The position numbers and the translations under genes are program-made. DNA of 9,534 nt from Limisphaerales bacterium (GTDB lineage: Bacteria; Verrucomicrobiota; Verrucomicrobiae; Limisphaerales; UBA11358). The notes beneath the pieces are model-generated. The model was not told where the DNA came from and did no database searches. It saw nothing but the letters and a program-made list of their open reading frames with translations. Positions 1 through 9,534 of the stretch are shown piece after piece. The stretch is from the NCBI GenBank assembly GCA_003152145.1, contig PLZL01000280.1:1-9534 (forward strand), in the 5' to 3' direction. Position 1 is the first letter of the stretch. Every line of letters begins with the position of its first letter.

Positions 1-2339
1 CCGGCCTCGCGCGGGTCGGGCATCTTTTTGGCAACGAACAATTTCATCTGCCGCTCGTAATCAAACGGCGTGCCGACCTGCAACTGCGTGGCTGACTCGC
101 AACCGACACGCCTGACAAAGTAAGCGAGCGCGTCTTTGCGTAGGACAGGCGTCGCGCCTGTCTCTAACTTTTTCTGTTCAGAATGAAACAGGCTGGAAGC
201 CTGTCCTGCGGTTGGCCCGCCGACACTGCTGCCGAAGCCAAGGCGAAATTCTCCTTCGGACAGCTTGGCTTTCACGGGATTTTCCTGAATGTAAGTCGAA
301 AATTTTCCCAGTGCCGCTTCGTCGCGCACGATGCAGTCAAATGATGCGTCCTGCCAGACATGGCCTTCACGTCCCAGCACGATGTTGATTTTTTTCGCCG
401 TGAACGATTTCCAGGAATGAAGGATTTCGGAAAGCGTGTTGTCGCCGGTTGGCCTGACCAGAACGTGAACGTGATTTGGCATTACAACAAAGTGGCCGAG
501 CCAATAACGTTGGCCGTCAAAGAATCGCAGCGCCTCTTCGACCAAAATTGAAATCTCCGGTTGTTGCAACCAGCATTCGCCCAGACCGTCATCCAGCCAG
601 CGGTGGAAGCGTTCGGCAAACAACCCGGCGTATTCCGCGTCCTGCTCCGCCGTGCGGGGTTCGGGATTCTTCCGCAACCAATCGGATAATTCCGTCCGCC
701 ACTGAACCAGCCTGTCCTTCGGGATGGAATCCGCCAGCCGGAACGTAACGAAGTAGGCGCAGCCAGCCTGTGTCCAGTGCGGCAAATGCCGTCCTGTCTT
801 TGCAACTGGCGCATCGGGATCGAACGGAATAAAGGGCAAGACAGGAACCGGCGCGGTTACGGGTTTCCTTGGCCGTAGGACAGCCGTCGTGGCTGTCTCC
901 AATTTCTCTTTTTTATTTAGAGACAGGCGCGACGCCTGTCCTACGGTGGCCAGCGTCGCGCTGGTCATGATGATGCTCGTGTCGCTCTCGAACAATCGGC
1001 GCCGCAAAAAATCGGCGACGTCCACCGGCGCGGCATTGAGTGAAAGATTTTTGTGCGTCTTGCCGCTGCGTTCAACCCAGTAAACGTGGTCGCCGGCGCT
1101 TTGTTCGAGGAACGCCTTCACCTCATCGCGCAGTTCTGCAAGGCGGCGGTTGCACTCGACGAGTTCCTGCCCGATGTCCTTGTCCTCGCTCAATTTGATC
1201 AGCTCGCTGACGGCTTCGCGCAGGCGTTGAATCGGCAGCGTGACGTTGTCCTTCACCAGTTCGGCGCGGCGGATGCGCAGTTCGGTCCACGCGCGGCGGC
1301 GTTCGCTGGTTTCGCCGCCGCCGAATCTATTTCTACCGGCGGATTTCTGGATTTCCTCGCACGCGGTCTCGACGTTCTCAAAAAATTTGTCGGCTTCGCT
1401 CAAAATATCGGCCACAAGTTTCACCGCACCGCCCTTTCGTAGCGTGGCGAGCAATCCTTTTTCCGTGCGCGGATTCCAGAGCCGGTTCAGCGCGTAACGC
1501 ACCTGCCCGCTCGACACGCTCAAGCCGATATGCCGCGACGCCACGCTTTCCATCGTGTGCGCCTCGTCGAAAATCACGAAGTCGTTCTTGAACAAAATGC
1601 CGCCTTCCTGTTCTTCATCAATCCCGCCGAGCAGCGTGAAAAACAGCGTGTGGTTCAGCACCAGCACATCCGACGAAAGGAACTTGTTCCGCGCACGCTG
1701 AAAAAAACAGACGCCGTGATCCTTGGCGAAATCGGACGGGAAGCCGCAGACTTTTGGCGAGCAAAGTCCGCGTTCAGAGCAGACCAGCGCCCAGACTTTC
1801 GGATCCGGCTCGACGTCGAAATCCGAGAGGCTGCCGTCCTTGGTTTCCTTCGACCATTCGTAGATGCGCTGCAATTCCTCGGCTTCGGACGACGTGAACA
1901 GGTTGCCGCTTTGCTGCATCGCCTTTTGGAGCCGGCGCGTGCAGAGATAATTCGCGCGGCCTTTGAGCATTGAGAAGCTGAATTTCACTGGCGCGGCGAG
2001 TGCGCCGAGCACATCTGCGAGCATCGGCAAATCTTTTTCCGTGAGCTGCTCCTGCAAATTGATGGTGTGCGTGGAAACGATGGCCTTTTTCTTCTGCGCC
2101 ACCGCGAACAAAATCGCCGGAACCAAATACGCGAGCGACTTGCCGACGCCTGTGCCGGCCTCGACGGCGAGATGTTCGCGGTTTTGCAACGCGCGCGCCA
2201 CCGCCACGGCCATTTCCTGTTGCTGCGGACGGAACTCAAAGTTCTTCGCCCGCGACAAGATGCCCGTTGGCGAAAAGATTTCTTCAACTTTAGAAATCAA
2301 ATCCGCACCAATGGGCTGGTTTTCGATGACGGAAATCAT
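1..2339 (-). CDS. dinG: DinG/XPD-type ATP-dependent DNA helicase with in-frame RAYT transposase insertion (3' end beyond window)
   Basis: This is a superfamily 2 helicase of the DinG/XPD group, predicted to unwind DNA with ATP during repair. I translated the frame by hand from ATG at 2339 to the left edge; about 779 codons are open with no stop. Visible parts: Walker A AGTGVGKS at residues 61-68; Cys in NYLC, GLC, KVC and GVC (about 133-211), placed like an XPD-family Fe-S cluster; NHTLFF near 229; DEAH from D258; motif III TSATL at 459-463. After ATLAT the frame enters foreign sequence (about 465-733): a REP pair, a RAYT domain (HVH at 623-625, catalytic-type Tyr683), and a second REP pair. 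Helicase sequence resumes at about residue 734 (DALAYFVRRVG, then QVGTPFDYERQMKLFV), which is the usual continuation after motif III. Motifs IV-VI lie beyond the edge. The start overlaps the yeaD stop as ATGA, implying translational coupling. Whether the interrupted protein works is unknown. Confidence 0.88.
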   Translation of the reverse strand, partial: MISVIENQPIGADLISKVEEIFSPTGILSRAKNFEFRPQQQEMAVAVARALQNREHLAVEAGTGVGKSLAYLVPAILFAVAQKKKAIVSTHTINLQEQLTEKDLPMLADVLGALAAPVKFSFSMLKGRANYLCTRRLQKAMQQSGNLFTSSEAEELQRIYEWSKETKDGSLSDFDVEPDPKVWALVCSERGLCSPKVCGFPSDFAKDHGVCFFQRARNKFLSSDVLVLNHTLFFTLLGGIDEEQEGGILFKNDFVIFDEAHTMESVASRHIGLSVSSGQVRYALNRLWNPRTEKGLLATLRKGGAVKLVADILSEADKFFENVETACEEIQKSAGRNRFGGGETSERRRAWTELRIRRAELVKDNVTLPIQRLREAVSELIKLSEDKDIGQELVECNRRLAELRDEVKAFLEQSAGDHVYWVERSGKTHKNLSLNAAPVDVADFLRRRLFESDTSIIMTSATLATVGQASRLSLNKKEKLETATTAVLRPRKPVTAPVPVLPFIPFDPDAPVAKTGRHLPHWTQAGCAYFVTFRLADSIPKDRLVQWRTELSDWLRKNPEPRTAEQDAEYAGLFAERFHRWLDDGLGECWLQQPEISILVEEALRFFDGQRYWLGHFVVMPNHVHVLVRPTGDNTLSEILHSWKSFTAKKINIVLGREGHVWQDASFDCIVRDEAALGKFSTYIQENPVKAKLSEGEFRLGFGSSVGGPTAGQASSLFHSEQKKLETGATPVLRKDALAYFVRRVGCESATQLQVGTPFDYERQMKLFVAKKMPDPREA
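139..211. repeat. REP pair (REPIN-like) B, downstream edge of the RAYT cassette
   Basis: The left arm (139-164) is the consensus GTAG plus hairpin GACAGGC/GCCTGTC. The right arm (185-211) is diverged: on the minus strand it begins GCAG instead of GTAG and its hairpin is ACAGGCT/AGCCTGT. The spacer is about 20 bases. On the minus strand it encodes GQASSLFHSEQKKLETGATPVL, joining the end of the RAYT domain to the resumed helicase sequence. Confidence 0.82.
873..946. repeat. REP pair (REPIN-like) A, upstream edge of the RAYT cassette
   Basis: Two 27-base arms face each other (873-899 and 920-946) around a 20-base AT-rich spacer. Each arm is itself a hairpin preceded by GTAG: the right arm, read on the minus strand, is GTAG then GACAGGC, a 5-base loop and GCCTGTC; the left arm is GTAG then GACAGCC, loop, GGCTGTC. 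The G-C pair swap between the arms is compensatory, so hairpin shape is kept. On the minus strand the pair translates as GQASRLS, a linker, then ETATTAVL, in frame with the helicase. Confidence 0.85.
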
Positions 2340-3241
2340 TTCAACGGGACGCTGCTCAAAACGACTATCAGCGCCGAGGTTTTACCCGGCGCGAGTGAAA
2401 TTTTATTCTGCTTCACGTTGCCGGATTCCACGCAGACCATGTGTTTATGCTCCGCCGGGTCGAAGTCGTCCGGCAATTTCTGCGTCGTCCACGGATTCCA
2501 GACGACGCTGGAGTTGGAATTGAGTTTCTCCACGCGGATGATTCGCTTGAGATTGTCATCGCGAATTTCCACCTTGCCGGCTGAGTCGGGATAAATGCGA
2601 TTTGTCTCCTTCGTGATGCGCAGCACAGAATCATTTTCAACTTTGCGAGCGCCGTTGCCGCCCGCCGCGTTGTCCAGAAATGGCGCGCCTTGCAGGCCGA
2701 CAATTGAAACCTGGCTGATGTCGCCGACGTGAAAATAGGTGTGCAGACAATTTTCAATTTCCATCGCTGTTGATGAATTGTTCGTGGCGGTCAATTCCAT
2801 TGTCAGCTTGTCGGAAACGGCCACGACAAATTCTGTGCGGAGATTTTTCCAGGCGGGGCGTTCGGGAATTTCCGGCAGACGAAAATTCAACGTCACCATA
2901 CCGTCCGGTGTCGTAGAAGTTTTGACCATTTCCCATTCCGTGATGCGCGCGAAGCCGTGCGCCGGTTCGCCATCGCGCGGGCCGAACCACGGGAAACAAA
3001 CCGGCACGCCGCCGCGAATCGGTTTGCCCGGCGCGAACCAGCTTTTGGCGCTCATGAACAGCAGCGGCGGCCCGCCGTTTTTCTGGAAGCCGGTGATGTG
3101 CGCGCCGAGCAGATAAATCTCCGCCGCGCTGGATTTGGTGGTGACGACGACTTTTGGCAACCCGCCGTCTCCGTTGACGATGGCGACGCGTCCGGGGATT
3201 TCGTGTTTCCGCAATTGGTCAGGAATGGAAGAGCTTGTCAT
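2336..3241 (-). CDS. yeaD: Glucose-6-phosphate 1-epimerase / D-hexose-6-phosphate mutarotase (YeaD family)
   Basis: This predicted cytoplasmic enzyme interconverts the alpha and beta anomers of hexose 6-phosphates. It is 301 residues, the usual length for this aldose-epimerase-like family. Seen in the translation: GAHITGF near 46; the phosphate-site region PIRGGVPVCFPWFGPRD at 74-90; HGFAR with His95; HTYFHVGD with His167 and His171, the region that carries the catalytic His; WNPW near 248; and VCVESGN with Glu272 at the catalytic Glu position. The ATG at 3241 is the first Met of the frame and gives a typical N-terminus; no strong Shine-Dalgarno precedes it. Its TGA (2338-2336) overlaps the ATG of the helicase gene by four bases, so the two are probably co-transcribed, although the functions are not obviously linked. 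The fold is gapmorphic with galactose mutarotase, but the motifs favour the phosphosugar enzyme. Confidence 0.9.
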   Translation of the reverse strand: MTSSSIPDQLRKHEIPGRVAIVNGDGGLPKVVVTTKSSAAEIYLLGAHITGFQKNGGPPLLFMSAKSWFAPGKPIRGGVPVCFPWFGPRDGEPAHGFARITEWEMVKTSTTPDGMVTLNFRLPEIPERPAWKNLRTEFVVAVSDKLTMELTATNNSSTAMEIENCLHTYFHVGDISQVSIVGLQGAPFLDNAAGGNGARKVENDSVLRITKETNRIYPDSAGKVEIRDDNLKRIIRVEKLNSNSSVVWNPWTTQKLPDDFDPAEHKHMVCVESGNVKQNKISLAPGKTSALIVVLSSVPLK

Positions 3242-3373
3242 ATCGGTGTGTTTTTATCACACGCGGCGTAAAGGCGCAGCCATTTTGTGCGCCGGATTTG
3301 CCATTGACTTTTCAGCAGTGGCGGCCAGCATGAAACCGTCGAAGGCTTTCAAGCCGAAAACCCGTCAAACATT
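3242..3373. promoter_or_regulatory. Divergent intergenic region between yeaD and the DUF4190 gene
   Basis: This 132-base spacer must hold the promoters of both divergent genes. It contains two short inverted repeats: GTGTG/CACAC (3246-3250 and 3258-3262, 7-base loop), which would lie in the yeaD leader, and GGCGCA/TGCGCC (3273-3278 and 3288-3293). A TTGACT hexamer at 3304-3309 could be a -35 box for the rightward gene, but no convincing -10 follows at the right distance. The location is certain from the gene layout; the individual sites are only suggestive. Confidence 0.4.
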
Positions 3374-3916
3374 ATGAACGAAACAACTCCTCCTCCACTC
3401 GGCGTCGTTCCACAGCCCAAAACTTCCGCCTTGGCAATCTGGAGCCTGGTGCTGGGAATATTGAGTCTGGCTTGCTTCACTATTTTCGCCGCCATTCCCG
3501 GCGTGATATGCGGGCACAAGGCGCTTTCCAAAATCAAGCATTCCGGCGGCGCGCTTACGGGACAGGGCATGGCCATCGCGGGTTTGGTCACGGGTTATTT
3601 GGGAATCGCGTGCGCGATTCTTTTTATTCCCTTGATGATGGCCATTGCGATTCCAAATTTTGTCAAGGCGCGCGATATATCAATGCAAAACGCGTGCATC
3701 AACAACCTGCGCCAGATTGACGGCGCAAAAAATGAATGGGCATTGGAAAATAACAAAACGAACGGCACGCCGGTCACCGAGGCGGACATCAAGCCCTACA
3801 TCAAGCTGGGTGCCAGTGGAAATCTTCCCAAGTGTCCGGCGGGCGGAACTTACACAATCGGCCCGGTTGGCGAGCCTCCAACTTGCTCTGTTCCCGAGCA
3901 TAAATTGCCACAATAG
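3374..3916 (+). CDS. DUF4190 membrane protein with pseudopilin-like C-terminal domain
   Basis: This 180-residue inner-membrane protein has no assigned biochemical role. Residues 1-16 are a Pro-rich cytoplasmic leader. Residues 17-85 match the DUF4190 layout: a first membrane segment at about 18-45, the Gly/Lys hairpin GHKALSKIKHSGGALTGQGM, and a second membrane segment at about 66-92. The second segment runs into AIAIPNFVKARD (90-101), the stretch that follows the hydrophobic helix in type II secretion and type IV pseudopilins. A globular tail follows with NACINNLRQIDGAKNEWAL, CPAGGTYT (Cys144) and PTCSVPEHKL (Cys161), a Cys pair seen in verrucomicrobial/planctomycetal pseudopilins. It lacks a prepilin peptidase leader, so it is not a classical pilin. 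No clear ribosome-binding site precedes ATG 3374. It is transcribed away from yeaD and ends 2 bases short of the small convergent ORF. Confidence 0.8.
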   Translation: MNETTPPPLGVVPQPKTSALAIWSLVLGILSLACFTIFAAIPGVICGHKALSKIKHSGGALTGQGMAIAGLVTGYLGIACAILFIPLMMAIAIPNFVKARDISMQNACINNLRQIDGAKNEWALENNKTNGTPVTEADIKPYIKLGASGNLPKCPAGGTYTIGPVGEPPTCSVPEHKLPQ

Positions 3917-3918
3917 CG

Positions 3919-4026
3919 TCAAGCTTCCAACAAATCCATTTGTGGCGGCAGGGCAAGCTGCTTCAGCTTTTCGCGGTCCTGCGCGTGGCGATTGATTGGT
4001 TCGTGCATCGGTTGAAGCCGTGACAT
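3919..4026 (-). CDS. 35-residue protein resembling the MutS C-terminal tail, with a putative beta-clamp-binding motif
   Basis: A 36-codon frame starts at ATG 4026 and ends at TGA 3921-3919. Upstream of the start is GGTGG with a 9-base spacer, a plausible Shine-Dalgarno and better than those of most neighbours. The peptide contains HAQDREKLKQLALPPQMDLL, which matches the last residues of the MutS encoded in this window (RDQDRDKLKTLAPPPQMDLF) at 14 of 20 positions by eye; the DNA is also clearly alike. QMDLL fits the bacterial sliding-clamp-binding consensus QL(S/D)LF (known motif; inferred here). It is convergent with the DUF4190 gene and divergent from the GH42 gene. It may be a small clamp-binding protein, or the leftover 3' end of a lost mutS-like gene; a ribosome-binding site and an intact start favour, but do not prove, a real gene. 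Confidence 0.5.
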   Translation of the reverse strand: MSRLQPMHEPINRHAQDREKLKQLALPPQMDLLEA

Positions 4027-4051
4027 AAAATAAATCCACCGTTCAAAATTT

Positions 4052-6142
4052 ATGAAAATCAAAATCCTTCTCGCGGCCTTGGTAATATCTGTCTGCTCAG
4101 CCCGCGCGGCGACCAACGCGCCGGCTTTTCCGCAATCCGACCTCATGCGCATCGGCGTTTATTATTACCCGGAGGCGTGGCCGTCGAATCAGTGGGCGCG
4201 CGACATCGCCAACATCAAGAAGCTTAATCTGGAATTCGTCCACATGGGCGAGTTCGCGTGGGCGTTCATGGAGCCGGAGGAAGGCAAATTCGATTTCGCC
4301 TGGCTCGATCGCAACATCCAGCTCTGCGCCGACCAGGGATTGAAAGTTGTTCTCTGCACACCCAGCCCCACGCCGCCGGTCTGGCTTTCTGAAAAGCACC
4401 CTGAAATTCTGATGGTAGATGCCGATGGCCGGCGCATGTTGCACGGCACGCGGCAGCAGGGGAACTGGAGTTCGGAGGTGTATCGCGAATACGTCGGCAA
4501 AATAGTCAACGAACTCGGCAAACGTTACGGCAACGACCCGCGCGTCTGGGGCTGGCAGCTCGACAATGAATTGAGTCATTACGGCAAAGAGCCGTCCTAC
4601 GACGACGCCAGCCAGGCGAAGTTCCGCGCGTGGTTGAAAAGCAAATACGGCACGATTGACAAGTTGAACGAAGCCTGGGGCGACGCCTTCTGGTCGCAGA
4701 TGTATCAGAACTTCGACCAGATTCGCATCCCGAATTCAAAGGAACTCGTCGCGCAAATCAACGAGCACGCGGAACTGGATGCGCAACGCTGGTTCACCGA
4801 CGAGGCGGCGGATTATTTGCGTTTTCAGACTGGCATCCTGCGCAAGTATTGCGGCCACCGCCAATGGATCACGAGCAACTTCATGCACATGTTCGGCGCG
4901 GTGAATCCCGCGCTGATGGGAAATGATTTTGAGATCATCACTTGGACACATTATCCGGCGCACGGAAATCTCAACGACGGTCCGCTCGGTTTCCGTCTCG
5001 GCGGCGCGGCGGAGATGTCCTTCTCGCATGATTTTCATCGGAGCATCAACGGCTTTGAAGGCTTGATGGAATTGCAGCCCGGCCAGGTGAATTGGGGCGA
5101 CGTGAATCCGCAGCCGTATCCCGGCGCGATTCATCTCTGGATTATGCGCGCCTTCGCGGCGGACGCGAAGATCGTCTGCACCTATCGCTACCGCGAACCG
5201 CTCTCCGGCGCGGAACAATATCACTACGGCCTCGTCGGCACGGACGGCGTCACGCCAACGCCCGGCGGCGAACAATATTCGCAGGCCGCGCAGGAAATGA
5301 ATTTGCTCCGCGCAAATCTGAAGCCCGACGCCAAAGAACCCGCCGCCTACGCCGCGCGCCGCACCGCGTTGCTCTACAACGTCGAAAGCCGATGGAACAT
5401 TGACGATCATAAACAAACCATCCGCTGGGACACGATGGGGCACATCTTGAAATCCTACCGCGCGCTCAAACGAGTTGGCGCTCCTGTAGACGTCATCACC
5501 GAGGAAAAGGATTTCAACAAGTATCCGTTCCTCGTCGTGCCCGCCGTCCAGCTCGTGGATGAAAAGCTCGTGCAACGCTGGAAAGATTACGCGGAGCAGG
5601 GCGGCAATCTCATCATCACCTGCCGCACCGGGCAGAAGGATCGTCGTGGACATCTTTGGGAAGGCCCATGGGCGATGCCCATCCTCGATCTCATCGGCGC
5701 GAAAATAAAATTCTACGACACGCTGCCCGCGCCGTATTCCGGCAAAATCACTGCGGACGGAAATTCCTACGACTGGACGAGCTGGGCGGAAATCCTTGAA
5801 CCCGACGCCGACACAACCGTCGTGGCCACGCACGCCGACCAATTTTACGCCGGCAAACCCGCCGCCGTGACGCGCAAGCTCGGCAAAGGCACGGTCACCT
5901 ACATCGGCGTGGATTCAACGAACGGCGACCTCGAAGCGCAACTCATCCGCGACGCCTTCACGCGCGCCAACGTGCCGGTGGAAAATCTTGCCGACGGTTT
6001 TCTCGTGGACTGGCGCGACGGTTTCTGGGTCGCGACGAACTTCACCGATAAGAACCAGCAGGCTCCCATTCCACCCAACGCCAAAATTCTCATCGGCACA
6101 CGCGACGTGCCCATTGCGGGTGTCACCGTCTGGCAGGAATGA
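4052..6142 (+). CDS. Secreted GH42 family beta-galactosidase
   Basis: This 696-residue retaining glycosidase is predicted to hydrolyse beta-galactosides (it could also act on related sugars) outside the cytoplasm. Residues 1-20 form a signal peptide (Lys-containing n-region, hydrophobic ILLAALVISVCS, ARA-A cleavage site). The TIM-barrel domain covers about 30-420: GVYYYPEAWP near 35; HMGEFAWAFMEPEEGKFDF; PPVWLSEKHPEIL; acid/base WQLDNE with Glu173; nucleophile MELQPGQVNWG with Glu340. The 167-residue spacing between the two Glu fits GH42. Residues about 437-640 form the Rossmann-like trimerisation domain (LLYNVESRWNID, YPFLVVPAVQLVD, GGNLIITCRTG, GKGTVTYIGVD), followed by a short beta-rich tail. 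A signal peptide is less common in GH42 than a cytoplasmic form. ATG 4052 is chosen because the signal peptide begins there; no clear ribosome-binding site precedes it. It appears to be monocistronic. Confidence 0.92.
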   Translation: MKIKILLAALVISVCSARAATNAPAFPQSDLMRIGVYYYPEAWPSNQWARDIANIKKLNLEFVHMGEFAWAFMEPEEGKFDFAWLDRNIQLCADQGLKVVLCTPSPTPPVWLSEKHPEILMVDADGRRMLHGTRQQGNWSSEVYREYVGKIVNELGKRYGNDPRVWGWQLDNELSHYGKEPSYDDASQAKFRAWLKSKYGTIDKLNEAWGDAFWSQMYQNFDQIRIPNSKELVAQINEHAELDAQRWFTDEAADYLRFQTGILRKYCGHRQWITSNFMHMFGAVNPALMGNDFEIITWTHYPAHGNLNDGPLGFRLGGAAEMSFSHDFHRSINGFEGLMELQPGQVNWGDVNPQPYPGAIHLWIMRAFAADAKIVCTYRYREPLSGAEQYHYGLVGTDGVTPTPGGEQYSQAAQEMNLLRANLKPDAKEPAAYAARRTALLYNVESRWNIDDHKQTIRWDTMGHILKSYRALKRVGAPVDVITEEKDFNKYPFLVVPAVQLVDEKLVQRWKDYAEQGGNLIITCRTGQKDRRGHLWEGPWAMPILDLIGAKIKFYDTLPAPYSGKITADGNSYDWTSWAEILEPDADTTVVATHADQFYAGKPAAVTRKLGKGTVTYIGVDSTNGDLEAQLIRDAFTRANVPVENLADGFLVDWRDGFWVATNFTDKNQQAPIPPNAKILIGTRDVPIAGVTVWQE

Positions 6143-6187
6143 AAATAAGCTGTTTGTGAAATAGCTGAAACCGTGAAGACTTTTAAG
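6143..6187. other. Short convergent spacer between the GH42 gene and the hypothetical gene
   Basis: This AT-rich 45-base gap separates two converging genes. Only a GACTT/AAGTC inverted repeat with a 2-base loop (6178-6189) is visible; it is too short and tight to call a terminator. Confidence 0.4.
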
Positions 6188-6907
6188 TCAAATTGGAGCA
6201 AATTTTCTGGGAACGGTTGTTTTCTCCAGACTTTGCCTCAAAATCTTTTTGGCTTCTTCTTTTGAAATAAACTTTGATTTTTTCATAGATCCCAAAGTCT
6301 GAAAAATCAAGTCTCCAAGTATTGCGTAATAAGCCGACAATGTGTGCGGGGCTACGGAATATTTCGTGAAGCCGTCGTAAACCATCTTGTCGTCCCCGCC
6401 GAGACTGTAACCCTTCAACAAGGCCCGGTAAGTCCGATGAGTAAATTTTGAAAGTTCTCGTTGTCTTTGTCTTTTTTCTTCGGCCTCTGCTTTTCTTCCA
6501 GATTTTTCCAGCCGCTCTCGGATTGATTTGTGGCTAATCACTTCGTTGTCGAACCATTTTTTAAGATCGCCTTGGCTTTGAGGGCTACTCGAAAGAAAAT
6601 ATTCGACCAATTGGCAGGATTCCCAAACATCACGGAATATCCGACCTACAAGTTCGTGTTTCTTCTTTTCCAGCAAGGACAGTGCTTCGCGTAAAGCATT
6701 TATTGTGTCATTGTGGAGCATCCAAGTTGCTTTTTGAAGGCTGCATGCGTCACGGTTAAAGTGTAGATTATGCTTGCCTAGAACTTTGCAAAGTCGTGAG
6801 AGAATTTTTTTAGCCTCGCGAACAAATTGCTCTTGAGCACCGTATTCGTAGGGATTGGAATACGCTTCTTCGGGGTCTCTGTTCCAAACGAAACTCGCCA
6901 TAGTCAT
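6188..6907 (-). CDS. Hypothetical helical protein, AT-rich relative to its neighbours
   Basis: I do not recognise this 239-residue protein. It looks soluble and mostly alpha-helical: no signal peptide or membrane segment, a long charged stretch at about 125-151 (RLEKSGRKAEAEEKRQRQRE), and a patterned helix ALREALSLLEKKKHELVGRIFRDVW at about 71-95. The layout loosely recalls DUF5677-like/HEPN-type helical proteins, and an R-x6-H string (R150 to H157) would fit a HEPN motif, but this is weak. It begins 9 bases after the mutS stop on the same strand, so it may be co-transcribed. ATG 6907 is the first start; a second in-frame ATG at 6901 has GGA about 6 bases upstream and may be the real one. Base composition and codon use are visibly more AT-rich than in mutS and the GH42 gene, consistent with recent acquisition. 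Confidence 0.7.
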   Translation of the reverse strand: MTMASFVWNRDPEEAYSNPYEYGAQEQFVREAKKILSRLCKVLGKHNLHFNRDACSLQKATWMLHNDTINALREALSLLEKKKHELVGRIFRDVWESCQLVEYFLSSSPQSQGDLKKWFDNEVISHKSIRERLEKSGRKAEAEEKRQRQRELSKFTHRTYRALLKGYSLGGDDKMVYDGFTKYSVAPHTLSAYYAILGDLIFQTLGSMKKSKFISKEEAKKILRQSLEKTTVPRKFAPI

Positions 6908-6916
6908 TCCATAATT

Positions 6917-9534
6917 TTACCCAAACAAATCCATCTGCGGCGGCGGGGCGAGCGTTTTCAATTTGTCGCGGTCTTGATCGCGGCGCGCAGATTGACGCAC
7001 GTTGCCTTCGGGCGTGAGTTCGGATTCTTCGAGGTTGCCAAGAATCTGTTTCGCGCGTTCCAAAACTTCCTTCGGCACGCCCGCCAGCCGCGCGACCTGG
7101 ATGCCGTAGCTCTTGTCCGTGCCGCCCTCGACAATTTTTCGGAGAAAGACAATCTGGTCATGCCACTCGCGCACGGCGACGTTGAAATTTTTCAATCGCG
7201 GCAGCCGCGCCGAAAGTTCCGTCAGCTCGTGGTAATGCGTAGCGAACAACGTTTTTGCGCCGACTTGATTGTGCAGATGCTCGACAATGGACCACGCGAG
7301 CGAAAGGCCGTCGAACGTGCTGGTGCCGCGACCGATTTCGTCCAGCACGATGAGGCTGCGCGGCGTGGCGTTGTTCAAAATGTTCGCCGTCTCGGTCATC
7401 TCCACCATGAACGTGCTTTGCCCGCGCGACAAATCATCGCTCGCACCGATGCGCGTGAAAATACGGTCCGCGAGATCAATCCGCGCTTCCGCCGCCGGCA
7501 CAAAACTACCGGTGTGCGCGAGCAGGGTCAGCAGCGCGACCTGCCGGATGTAAGTGGATTTGCCCGCCATGTTCGGCCCGGTGATGAGGGCGATTTGCGC
7601 AAATTTTTCTCCCTCGCCCCGCCCGGCGGGGAGAGGGTGGCCGGAGGCCGGGTGAGGGGATTTGATTTGCGCCACCTCACCCCAGCCCTCTCCCCCCCTC
7701 TGCGGCGGAGAGGGAGAAGAAAATCCGCAGCTCGCCAATCCCGTGTCATTCGGCACGAAGCGTTCCTCAACGAGTTGCTGTTCCAAGACCGGATGCCGCC
7801 CGTCACGAATTTGAATGACACCTTCGTCGCCGACTTGCGGACGAATGTAATTATGCAAGCGCGCGGTTTCGGCAAATGACCCAAGCACGTCCAGTTGCGC
7901 CAGAGCGGAGGCGGTCTGCTGGATTTTTGGCAGTTGCCCCAGCACTTCCTCGCGCACGCGCTGGAACAATTCGTATTCCAATTTCACGCTGCGCTCCTCC
8001 GCGCCAAGGATTTTGCCTTCCATTTCCTTCAACTCCGGCGTGATGAAACGCTCGCCGTTGGCGACGGTCTGCTTGCGGATGTAATGCTGCGGGACCTTGT
8101 CGAGGTTCGATTTGGTGACTTCGATGTAGTAGCCGAAAACGGAATTGAACCGGACTTTCAGCGACGAAATGCCGGTGCGCGTGATTTCATCCGCCTGCAA
8201 TTTGGCAATCCAATCCTTGCCGCCGCGCTGGGCGGTGCGAAGTTCGTCGAGCGCGGCGTCAAAACCGTCGCGAATCATGCCGCCTTCCTTGATGGGCAGC
8301 GGCGGCTCGTCCACGATGGCGCGGGAAATCAATTCAACGAGGTCGGGCGATTCGGAAATTTGCGCAGCGAGGTTTTCCAGTAGGACAGGCGTCACGCCTG
8401 TCTCATTATTTTCTGAATCTTCCAACTTCGGGAGATTTTTTTCCGAATTTGGAGACAGGCGCGACGCCTGTCCTACGGTGGCAAGTGTTTGTTTCAATGC
8501 GGGAACCTGCTCCAGCGCTACTCGCAGTGCGACAAGGTCACGCGCATTGCCGCTGCCGGAACTCAATCGGCCCAGCGTGCGTTCGAGATCACGCACATTG
8601 GCAAGCTGCTGGCGAAAGGCGTCGAGGCCGAAGGAATTTTCGATGAACATTTGAACTGCGACCTGACGCCGGCGGATCGGCTCGACGGCCGCAAGCGGCT
8701 GCGAAAGCCATTGGCGCAACAGCCGCGCGCCCATCGGTGTGGCGGTGCGGTTCAACACGCCATAAAGCGAGGCGTTGCGCGGCGCGTCATGGTGCAGCGG
8801 CTCGAGAATCTCCAGATGCCGCAGCGTCGTGTAATCGAGCGTGAGAAAATCGCTGCGCTGGTAAAACGAAATTCGCGTGAGGTGCTTCACGTCGCGGCGC
8901 AGATTTTGCGTGAGGTAATGCAGTGCGCCGCCCGCCGCGCCGATAGCCGCATTTTTTTCCTTCAATCCAAAACCATCGAGCGACGCGACCTTGAAATGCT
9001 CGCGCACGGTAAACACGGCGGTTTCCGGCGCGAATGTCCAATCGTCGTAGCCGTTCAAGATTTTGAATGAATTACGCAGCAAATCGTGCAGCGAAGCGGC
9101 CTCGGTCGGAAAAATAATTTCCGCCGGGCGCAGGCGTTCGAGTTCGGTCAGGAGCGCGGAATCGTTTTCCAGTTCGGTCGTCAGGAAATCGCCGGTGGTC
9201 AAATCCACGATCGCGAGGCCGAAGATTTTTCCGCGTGGACAGACGGCGGCCAGAAAATTATTCCGCTCCGCGACAAGCATCCGCTCATCAAAATGCGTGC
9301 CGGGCGAGAGGATTTGGGTGACCTCGCGTTTGACGAGTTTGCCGGGCCGGGCGTCTTCGAGCTGGTCGCAGATGGCGACTTTTCGTCCGGCCTTGAGCAG
9401 CCGGCCGATGTAGGCATTCGACGCATGATGCGGCAGGCCGCACATCGGCACGCCGTTGCGCGCTGTGAGCGCGAGGTTCAGCAATTGCGCGCCGGTTTGC
9501 GCGTCTTCAAAAAACATCTCATAAAAATCGCCGA
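6917..9534 (-). CDS. mutS: DNA mismatch repair ATPase MutS (N-terminus beyond window) carrying two palindromic inserts
   Basis: MutS binds mismatches and signals repair through its ABC-type ATPase. The frame stays open upstream of Met 9517 and reads GDFYE to the edge, so about 35-40 N-terminal residues are missing and FYE is the Phe-X-Glu mismatch-contact motif. Numbering from Met 9517: connector region to about 240; core/lever with YYIEVTKSNLDKVP at about 465-480; Walker A GPNMAGKST from 647; DEIGRGTST (Walker B and D-loop); FATHYHEL switch His; and the C-terminal tail ending QMDLFG, a beta-clamp-type motif. Two in-frame additions set it apart: about 34 residues from REP pair C after LKQTLATV (about 347-380), and about 40 residues (about 600-638) between VPNDTG and IALITGPN, right before the nucleotide-binding strand. 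Both lie where MutS lengths vary or loops are likely. All catalytic motifs are intact. Stop is TAA 6919-6917. Confidence 0.95.
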   Translation of the reverse strand, partial: GDFYEMFFEDAQTGAQLLNLALTARNGVPMCGLPHHASNAYIGRLLKAGRKVAICDQLEDARPGKLVKREVTQILSPGTHFDERMLVAERNNFLAAVCPRGKIFGLAIVDLTTGDFLTTELENDSALLTELERLRPAEIIFPTEAASLHDLLRNSFKILNGYDDWTFAPETAVFTVREHFKVASLDGFGLKEKNAAIGAAGGALHYLTQNLRRDVKHLTRISFYQRSDFLTLDYTTLRHLEILEPLHHDAPRNASLYGVLNRTATPMGARLLRQWLSQPLAAVEPIRRRQVAVQMFIENSFGLDAFRQQLANVRDLERTLGRLSSGSGNARDLVALRVALEQVPALKQTLATVGQASRLSPNSEKNLPKLEDSENNETGVTPVLLENLAAQISESPDLVELISRAIVDEPPLPIKEGGMIRDGFDAALDELRTAQRGGKDWIAKLQADEITRTGISSLKVRFNSVFGYYIEVTKSNLDKVPQHYIRKQTVANGERFITPELKEMEGKILGAEERSVKLEYELFQRVREEVLGQLPKIQQTASALAQLDVLGSFAETARLHNYIRPQVGDEGVIQIRDGRHPVLEQQLVEERFVPNDTGLASCGFSSPSPPQRGGEGWGEVAQIKSPHPASGHPLPAGRGEGEKFAQIALITGPNMAGKSTYIRQVALLTLLAHTGSFVPAAEARIDLADRIFTRIGASDDLSRGQSTFMVEMTETANILNNATPRSLIVLDEIGRGTSTFDGLSLAWSIVEHLHNQVGAKTLFATHYHELTELSARLPRLKNFNVAVREWHDQIVFLRKIVEGGTDKSYGIQVARLAGVPKEVLERAKQILGNLEESELTPEGNVRQSARRDQDRDKLKTLAPPPQMDLFG
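7605..7723. repeat. GC-rich palindromic element D (second repeat family) inside mutS
   Basis: The element is two inverted, related arms. Arm 1 has a strong hairpin at 7611-7637 (CCCTC-g-CCCCGCC with its complement, one mismatch) followed by GGCC/GGCC and GTGAGGGG. Arm 2 (about 7675-7718) begins CCTCACCCC and has CCCTCT/AGAGGG at 7696-7701 and 7709-7714. It is a member of the CCCTCaCCCC...GAGAGGG type of dispersed repeat and is unrelated to the REP pairs. On the minus strand it adds SPSPPQRGGEGWGE and SPHPASGHPLPAGRGEG to MutS. A 9-base direct repeat GATTTGCGC (7592-7600 and 7664-7672) flanks arm 1. Confidence 0.8.
8380..8478. repeat. REP pair (REPIN-like) C inside mutS
   Basis: Arms at 8380-8404 and 8452-8478 match those flanking the RAYT cassette: GTAG followed by the GACAGGC/GCCTGTC hairpin, in inverted orientation around a 47-base spacer. 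Read on the minus strand it encodes GQASRLS, a linker (PNSEKNLPKLEDSENN), then ETGVTPVL, in frame with mutS. The bases before the first arm (GCCACC) are also the same as at pair A, so both give LATVGQASRLS. Confidence 0.88.

Follow-up and report, generated by a model that had tools for sequence, protein, structure and literature searches.

Inteins and other homing elements occupy fixed sites in conserved genes, are present in a patchy manner, and have histories that are decoupled from those of their hosts, and an IStron is an IS605-type element with a group I intron. REP-associated tyrosine transposases (RAYTs, or TnpAREP) and the REPtrons that they form with repetitive extragenic palindromic sequences (REPs) belong to the IS200/IS605-like Y1 transposases, and passages of PMC8049555 describe RAYTs as domesticated, single-copy, vertically inherited, and of unknown function. 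Sections of PMC3733652 report REPs that lie in frame inside genes, many of which are involved in DNA synthesis and repair. Here, we analyze a stretch of 9,534 nucleotides (the window; positions 1 to 9,534 of the forward strand of contig PLZL01000280.1, assembly GCA_003152145.1) from a Limisphaerales bacterium of the Verrucomicrobiota, in which a REP-RAYT-REP cassette lies in frame in the loop after motif III of a YoaA/DinG-type helicase. This cassette is probably a mobile element that is faithful to its site and is carried along by the translation of its host.

The cassette shares with RAYT/TnpAREP systems an HUH and Tyr core and flanking REP pairs tagged with GTRG, and REPs of the same sequence are dispersed in the genomes of some relatives. 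Unlike these systems as described, however, it lies within a host coding sequence and has a history that differs from that of its host. With in-frame intragenic REPs and Rickettsia palindromic elements (RPEs), it has in common that palindromic repeats occur in frame in genes, many for DNA synthesis or repair; those are repeat-encoded stretches of at most 82 residues, whereas here an entire transposase gene is in frame. As in an IStron, a Y1 transposase element sits inside a host gene, but the window contains no match to a group I intron. Like inteins and homing elements, the DinG cassette has a fixed site, a patchy presence, and a decoupled history; unlike them, it showed no match to an intein or homing-endonuclease domain or to an intron RNA, and nothing was found that would remove the insert.

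The sequence-only reading of this locus knew of no described example. This held for the nested RAYT, of which no description was found among the papers listed in searches of open-licence PubMed Central (for example, 40 of 109 in one search), including the consulted parts of PMC3733652; a word search for fusion or fused in PMC2817692 and PMC8266576 gave nothing on nested RAYTs either. It did not hold for in-frame REPs within genes, which are not new, as PMC3733652 describes them. Part of PMC6006769 mentions unexpectedly long proteins that were set aside as gene fusions or annotation errors.

The composite gene is encoded on the minus strand by a single frame (2339..3) that runs uninterrupted from its ATG for 779 amino acids and exits the window at the left edge. 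Its parts, in coding order, are:

945..2339, minus strand: YoaA/DinG-type helicase, N-terminal part (residues 1-465), with motif III TSATL at 951-965 (open reading frame; NCBIfam NF053712/NF005981/NF008729; Pfam DEAD).
873..946, no strand assigned: first REP pair (REPIN), of which the coding strand starts with GTAG, translated as VGQASRLS...TAVLR (inverted repeat; junction reading).
219..827, minus strand: RAYT-like Y1/HUH transposase (residues ~505-707), with HVH at 465-473 and the candidate catalytic Tyr at 291-293 (Pfam Y1_Tnp; NF047646 below cut-off; invariant H623, H625, and Y683).
139..212, no strand assigned: second REP pair, translated as GQASSLF...TGATPVLR (direct and inverted repeats).
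3..137, minus strand: resumption of the helicase (residues 735-779, ...ALAYFVRRVG...TPFDYERQM), with the remainder and the stop beyond the window (translation; the near-identical protein P0002 continues to 959 amino acids with Helicase_C_2).

The frame, its Pfam and NCBIfam matches, and the repeats all confirmed the order that had been read from the letters: helicase motifs, a REP pair, an HUH/Tyr domain, a REP pair, and helicase again. Pfam matched DEAD/ResIII at residues 34-102 and Y1_Tnp at residues 616-687 (27.1 bits, passing the cut-off of 23), and the NCBIfam YoaA/DinG models all matched inside residues 20-473. As the curated YoaA equivalog score was missed (314 vs 680 bits, with the frame cut by the window edge), we refer to the helicase as YoaA/DinG-type. 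Similarly, the NCBIfam model REP_Tyr_transpos (NF047646) matched residues 594-694 with 67.7 bits, which falls short of the curated cut-off of 80, and we therefore call the transposase RAYT-like, although the HUH motif, the Tyr, and GTRG-tagged REPs are present. In genomes G001-G003, nested copies scored 54-68 bits with this model, and the remaining matches 21-102 bits.

Both junctions of the insert consist of REP hairpins. The arms of the first pair (873-902 and 917-946) are 87% complementary and those of the second (139-164 and 185-210) 81%, and arm 139-167 is the perfect complement of arm 917-945. Measured from where TSATL ends to the V of RVG, the span in the window is 843 nt (281 codons), compared to 16 codons in the empty relative L003, giving a net gain of ~265 codons, close to the ~269 added codons estimated from the window by itself. 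An intron or intein was considered and dropped: no Hint or homing-endonuclease domain was among the Pfam matches of the window frame and P0002, and no intron RNA, group I included, was matched by Rfam at gathering score across the window.

A search with the insert region yielded 2874 proteins, and the protein figures given here rest on the best 120 of these. The nearest, P0002, is identical to the window frame at 772 of 779 residues and carries Helicase_C_2 at residues 791-953 of its 959 amino acids (Pfam), so that the stop, frameshift, or lack of motifs IV-VI feared beyond the window edge is absent in the nearest relative. The XPD-like helicase domains on both sides of the insert are hence read in two proteins, the N-terminal part in the window and the C-terminal part in P0002. 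The helicase-RAYT composite is not unique to the window: Helicase_C_2 was present in 119/120 proteins (the exception being P0048), most of them ~955 amino acids long, and a TSATL-type motif III stood directly before the insert in 114. A JGI label, "Rad3-related DNA helicase/REP element-mobilizing transposase RayT", indicates that annotation pipelines had already met the composite. An assembly chimera or a decaying pseudogene could mimic such a gene; the loci are metagenome-derived going by their titles, and REP repeats are places where assemblies break. Against this, the composite recurs in frame from several sources, on contigs of ~200-500 kb in several cases and in some clusters recovered from 5-11 contigs, which makes the assembly error named as a possible refutation unlikely. 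With dN/dS ratios (nonsynonymous over synonymous substitution rates; see below) far under 1 as well, we consider the chimera or pseudogene extremely improbable.

The structure model of P0002 resembled the DinG structure 6fwr (Foldseek E 3e-24) and weakly matched the RAYT-REP structure 4er8 (E 0.005, probability 1.00, template modeling score 0.49 on target); compared to DinG/YoaA helicases, the gene has ~265 extra codons after motif III. A search of the RAYT sequence against solved structures gave zero matches. As the model was of intermediate quality (mean predicted local distance difference test score [pLDDT] 64, predicted template modeling score 0.49), we draw no conclusions from it about contacts between domains. 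The REP stretches (residues 462-501, 507-522, and 707-735) had pLDDT values below 50, which is consistent with a role as flexible linkers.

To see how the site is occupied elsewhere, the nearest 80 of 239 helicase loci in genome contigs were compared. Only 4 of these contained the insert (L010, L013, L055, and L057). One locus (L048) stops before the loop region, another (L028) is cut further on with its loop legible and empty, and in three (L062, L070, and L073) the TSATL pattern was unmatched, in frames of 621-723 amino acids without HUH. Among 26 printed RAYT-less loops, 7 read uninterrupted as TSATLATNxK... (L003, L004, L007, L008, L016, L017, and L024). Others were filled differently: L005 contains a REP pair of another type, L042 a decayed REP pair, and several more seem, by eye, to contain unrelated in-frame palindromes. 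The DinG loop after motif III is thus a hot spot for palindromic DNA. In genome G005, a solo REP pair occupies the exact insertion point in DinG (L001), which could be the footprint of a lost cassette. This genome has 80 REPs of the first type and no RAYT in its DinG; these REPs would be compatible with a DinG-RAYT that was once present and then lost, yet RAYTs present elsewhere in the genome might maintain them. The occurrence of differing cassette versions, or none, at the same spot suggests a mobile element that survives through translation within a host protein.

The history of the RAYT was then set against that of the helicase. Trees were drawn from the best 120 of 2874 proteins plus the best 120 of 5174, omitting 6 of the first set without a motif III match (P0027, P0031, P0035, P0038, P0048, and P0071) and 9 rows of the second without the core pattern. 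In the tree of 228 RAYTs, 122/125 DinG-resident RAYTs fell into a single set with branch support 92 (unstarred), all but P0088, P0091, and L055, and this set included just three "free" rows, two of which are on contigs under 1 kb. RAYTs in DinG therefore make up almost one lineage. In the helicase tree (179 rows), by contrast, 107 fused and 72 empty helicases were intermingled, with 38 changes, at least 18 of them forced by starred branches.

Distances gave the same picture. The distance set comprised 101 fusions (filtering by length and motif left 100/120 proteins plus 4 loci, of which 3 without the resume motif were then lost). Helicase and RAYT distances were uncorrelated (rho 0.03, Mantel p 0.28), whereas the two stretches of helicase that border the insert correlated with each other (last 60 N-side vs first 60 C-side columns, rho 0.49). 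RAYT divergence exceeded 35% in 44/63 pairs whose helicase N-terminal parts differ by less than 8%; in P0002 and P0108, for example, helicase distances were 0.03 (N) and 0.02 (C), and the RAYT distance was 0.43. Approximately unbiased (AU) tests were carried out on 34 fusions, selected after the earlier trees and distances had been inspected. On the helicase tree, uniting either of two RAYT clades was rejected (p 0.003 and 6e-34), and on the RAYT tree, placing P0002 with P0108 was rejected (p 1e-64). These results show that the cassette, RAYT and REP ends together, has a history independent of the host helicase. A single ancient fusion with vertical descent only is ruled out by the mixed helicase tree, the distances, and the AU tests. 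Instead, we infer that the cassette has moved, either by its own transposase or by recombination.

The REP ends accompany the RAYT. The left REP peptide correlated with the RAYT (rho -0.63) and hardly with the helicase (-0.09), as did the right REP peptide (-0.50 and -0.17, respectively), which indicates that the moving unit is the entire cassette. G001 contained 176 REPs of the flanking type (at most 2 mismatches), and in G002 the other type occurred 31 times; a reversed-pattern control had no occurrences in any of the 12 genomes. By eye, the left REP often has AAA just ahead of its GTRG among 86 scanned loci, a possible target preference.

RAYTs in frame inside long genes were not confined to DinG. 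RAYT searches covered 80 genomes, 293 genomes of the order (often with only 9 candidates scored per genome), and 288 genomes drawn from the phylum. In the order, 41/108 RAYT matches lay in frames of at least 500 amino acids, including 35 of the best 40; in the phylum, 40/86 lay in frames of this length, including 25 of the best 40. Hosts recognized by hidden Markov models or from the flanks were DnaE, PriA (two sites), ClpB, SNF2, UDPGP-type proteins, HsdR, BREX PglX, N6- and Eco57I-type methylases, a DISARM DrmD-like helicase, LeuRS, ValRS, CarB, HypF, XseA, and others, and RAYTs were also found at the C-terminus of Dtd and of a cyclase. Host labels for L230-L267 were assigned by eye from the flanks, with 9 of these scanned with Pfam. 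A long frame alone is no proof of a host, as L119 (G056) resembles a frame that is open by chance, and no host was identified for the long frames of L198 and of several loci among L230-L267.

Several of these loci stand out individually. At the PriA site before Walker A, L183 (G005) and L184 (G075) carry a RAYT group that is very different from that of L180-L182 and L213. L209 (G152) is a DnaE-RAYT at a second site, different from that of L176-L179 and L217, yet of the same DnaE RAYT lineage. In P0130-P0166 (e.g., P0131 and P0135), D-tyrosyl-tRNA deacylase continues in frame at its C-terminus into a RAYT, and these RAYTs largely form their own lineage. In-frame RAYTs were also found in restriction, methylase, BREX, and DISARM-like genes (L190, L193-L197, L201, L202, L210, and L212).

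RAYTs grouped by host gene. With 18 groups, 25 changes were counted, where the minimum is 17 and shuffling gave 88.8 (30 DinG rows only, fragments P0122, P0134, and P0193 omitted, and the second-site row L209 counted as DnaE). With 29 groups, 41 changes were counted, where the minimum is 28 and shuffling gave 111.2 (database "free" rows omitted, along with L243, L261, and L263, which lack the HUH pattern, and the catch-all label "other" included). Such grouping bears on the idea that REPs and RAYTs insert anywhere, and that only in-frame copies in tolerant gene loops persist. The RAYT-less DinG loops with in-frame REP pairs or, by eye, other palindromes would fit random insertion, as would the PriA site with two very different RAYT groups and the LeuRS site, which is occupied by two separate groups. 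However, a single lineage predominates at each of the DnaE, PriA, and ClpB sites, and RAYTs of the DinG lineage seldom occur outside DinG (the 8 best matches in 293 genomes comprised 7 in DinG and 1 in SNF2), so that we regard random insertion followed by selection as unlikely. A wider reading, which we put forward tentatively and at slightly less than even chances, is that Verrucomicrobiota harbor non-spliced homing elements: RAYT lineages that each specialize on a single site of a single conserved gene (such as DinG, DnaE, PriA, ClpB, or Dtd), insert in frame with REP linkers that are themselves coding, are translated as a lasting domain of their host protein, and spread from allele to allele between species.

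The transposase itself appears intact. The HUH motif was present in 120/120 proteins and Y..NP in 117/120, with the Tyr visible in the other 3, and H623, H625, and Y683 were invariant columns across 36 aligned fusions. Of 16 RAYT pairs, 2 were saturated; among the 14 with values, dN/dS was 0.09-0.22 in 13 and 0.37 in the cyclase pair. Usable host values were 0.08-0.26, except for 0.34 in the C part of L176/L217; the host N-part values of L202/L212 and L176/L217 were discarded because the slice spanned nearly the whole frame, with the RAYT sitting at the frame start. In two DnaE pairs, RAYT dS was 1.55 and 2.92, compared to 0.41-0.58 for the host. Conserved catalytic residues and purifying selection would also be expected of a domesticated enzyme, in which the helicase feeds single-stranded DNA to a tethered RAYT and this joint function maintains the fusion, and several other RAYT hosts handle DNA too (DnaE, PriA, XseA, SNF2, and HsdR). 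Yet the insert is missing from most of the nearest loci, RAYT and helicase histories are unrelated, and in-frame RAYTs also occur in LeuRS, ValRS, CarB, HypF, ClpB, and UDPGP-type genes, for which a tethered DNA nuclease would be of no obvious use. We therefore consider domestication improbable. The sequence-only reading had left the choice between a fusion protein and a mobile gene hidden in its host; the second is favored and the first, as a domesticated helicase-transposase, is not, given the patchy presence at a single site, the decoupled RAYT history, the co-traveling REP ends, and the in-frame RAYTs in many unrelated genes.

As a site-faithful mobile element, the cassette could persist as follows. 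The REPs would be translated as flexible linkers, so that the host protein stays functional, and the RAYT would be produced and spread by riding on host gene expression. The cassette may enter the empty or REP-bearing site of a new genome by single-strand HUH transposition or by recombination, and may be lost when its two REP pairs recombine, with a solo REP pair left behind. In trans, the RAYT might multiply matching REPs elsewhere. With its fixed site and a history decoupled from that of the host gene, the DinG cassette would behave as a homing element without splicing.

A number of observations weigh against this reading. In six closer pairs, RAYT dS was about equal to host dS, which looks vertical; in the pairs beyond these and the two DnaE pairs, dS was in between or saturated. 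In-frame internal ATG codons were found in 36/68 nested and 18/25 free RAYTs, so that separate translation is possible; internal start codons were dropped as proof of fusion-only expression, as the counts do not discriminate. The LeuRS, PriA-N, HsdR, UDPGP, SNF2, and PglX sites do not hold single RAYT clades. In a second tree, the "free" RAYTs P0123, P0125, P0128, and P0161 (unplaced context) fell within or beside the DinG lineage, and L055 had a DinG-RAYT that grouped with an SNF2-resident RAYT. The DinG-RAYT carrier G004 has just 2 REPs of its type, both adjoining the RAYT, so that REP multiplication is unsupported in this genome. Finally, a scan of the 86 loci for GTRG hairpins (free-standing loci and one duplicate included) detected a left REP in 48 and a right REP in 36.

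The remaining contrary points concern the 3' flank. The helicase C part correlated weakly with the RAYT (rho 0.13, p 0.011), in windows declining from 0.108 to 0.035 with distance. P0087 and P0090 have the RAYT and C part in common but not the N part, and P0079 and P0094 are likewise more alike in the RAYT and C part than in the N part. Some transfer of the 3' flank through ordinary recombination is therefore likely. Taken further, the cassette could be exchanged solely by homologous recombination via helicase flanks or REPs after horizontal transfer, with the transposase uninvolved in its spread. The C-side gradient and these two pairs speak for this; however, the N side has no clear gradient, the N and C flanks agree with each other across unrelated RAYTs, and the REP ends vary in sequence and accompany the RAYT. 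Exchange by recombination alone is, in our view, a serious but rather unlikely explanation.

Nested RAYTs that retain catalytic residues, have an unrelated history, and mostly belong to one lineage per best-sampled site would represent a form of persistence in which a transposase can do without splicing and without a separate gene, and they open RAYT mobility, target choice, and REP expansion to direct tests. They also suggest that transposase labels on helicases, polymerases, and tRNA synthetases in Verrucomicrobiota can be real composites rather than annotation errors.

The window contains another gene with in-frame repeats. In a MutS open reading frame (6917-9532, minus strand), an in-frame REP pair of the type found in the cassette lies at 8380-8476 (LATVGQASRLS...TGVTPVLLENL), inside the match to MutS domain III. 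A second in-frame repeat-like insertion (SPSPPQRGGEGWGEV...PAGRGEGEK) lies at ~7608-7731, just ahead of the Walker A region.

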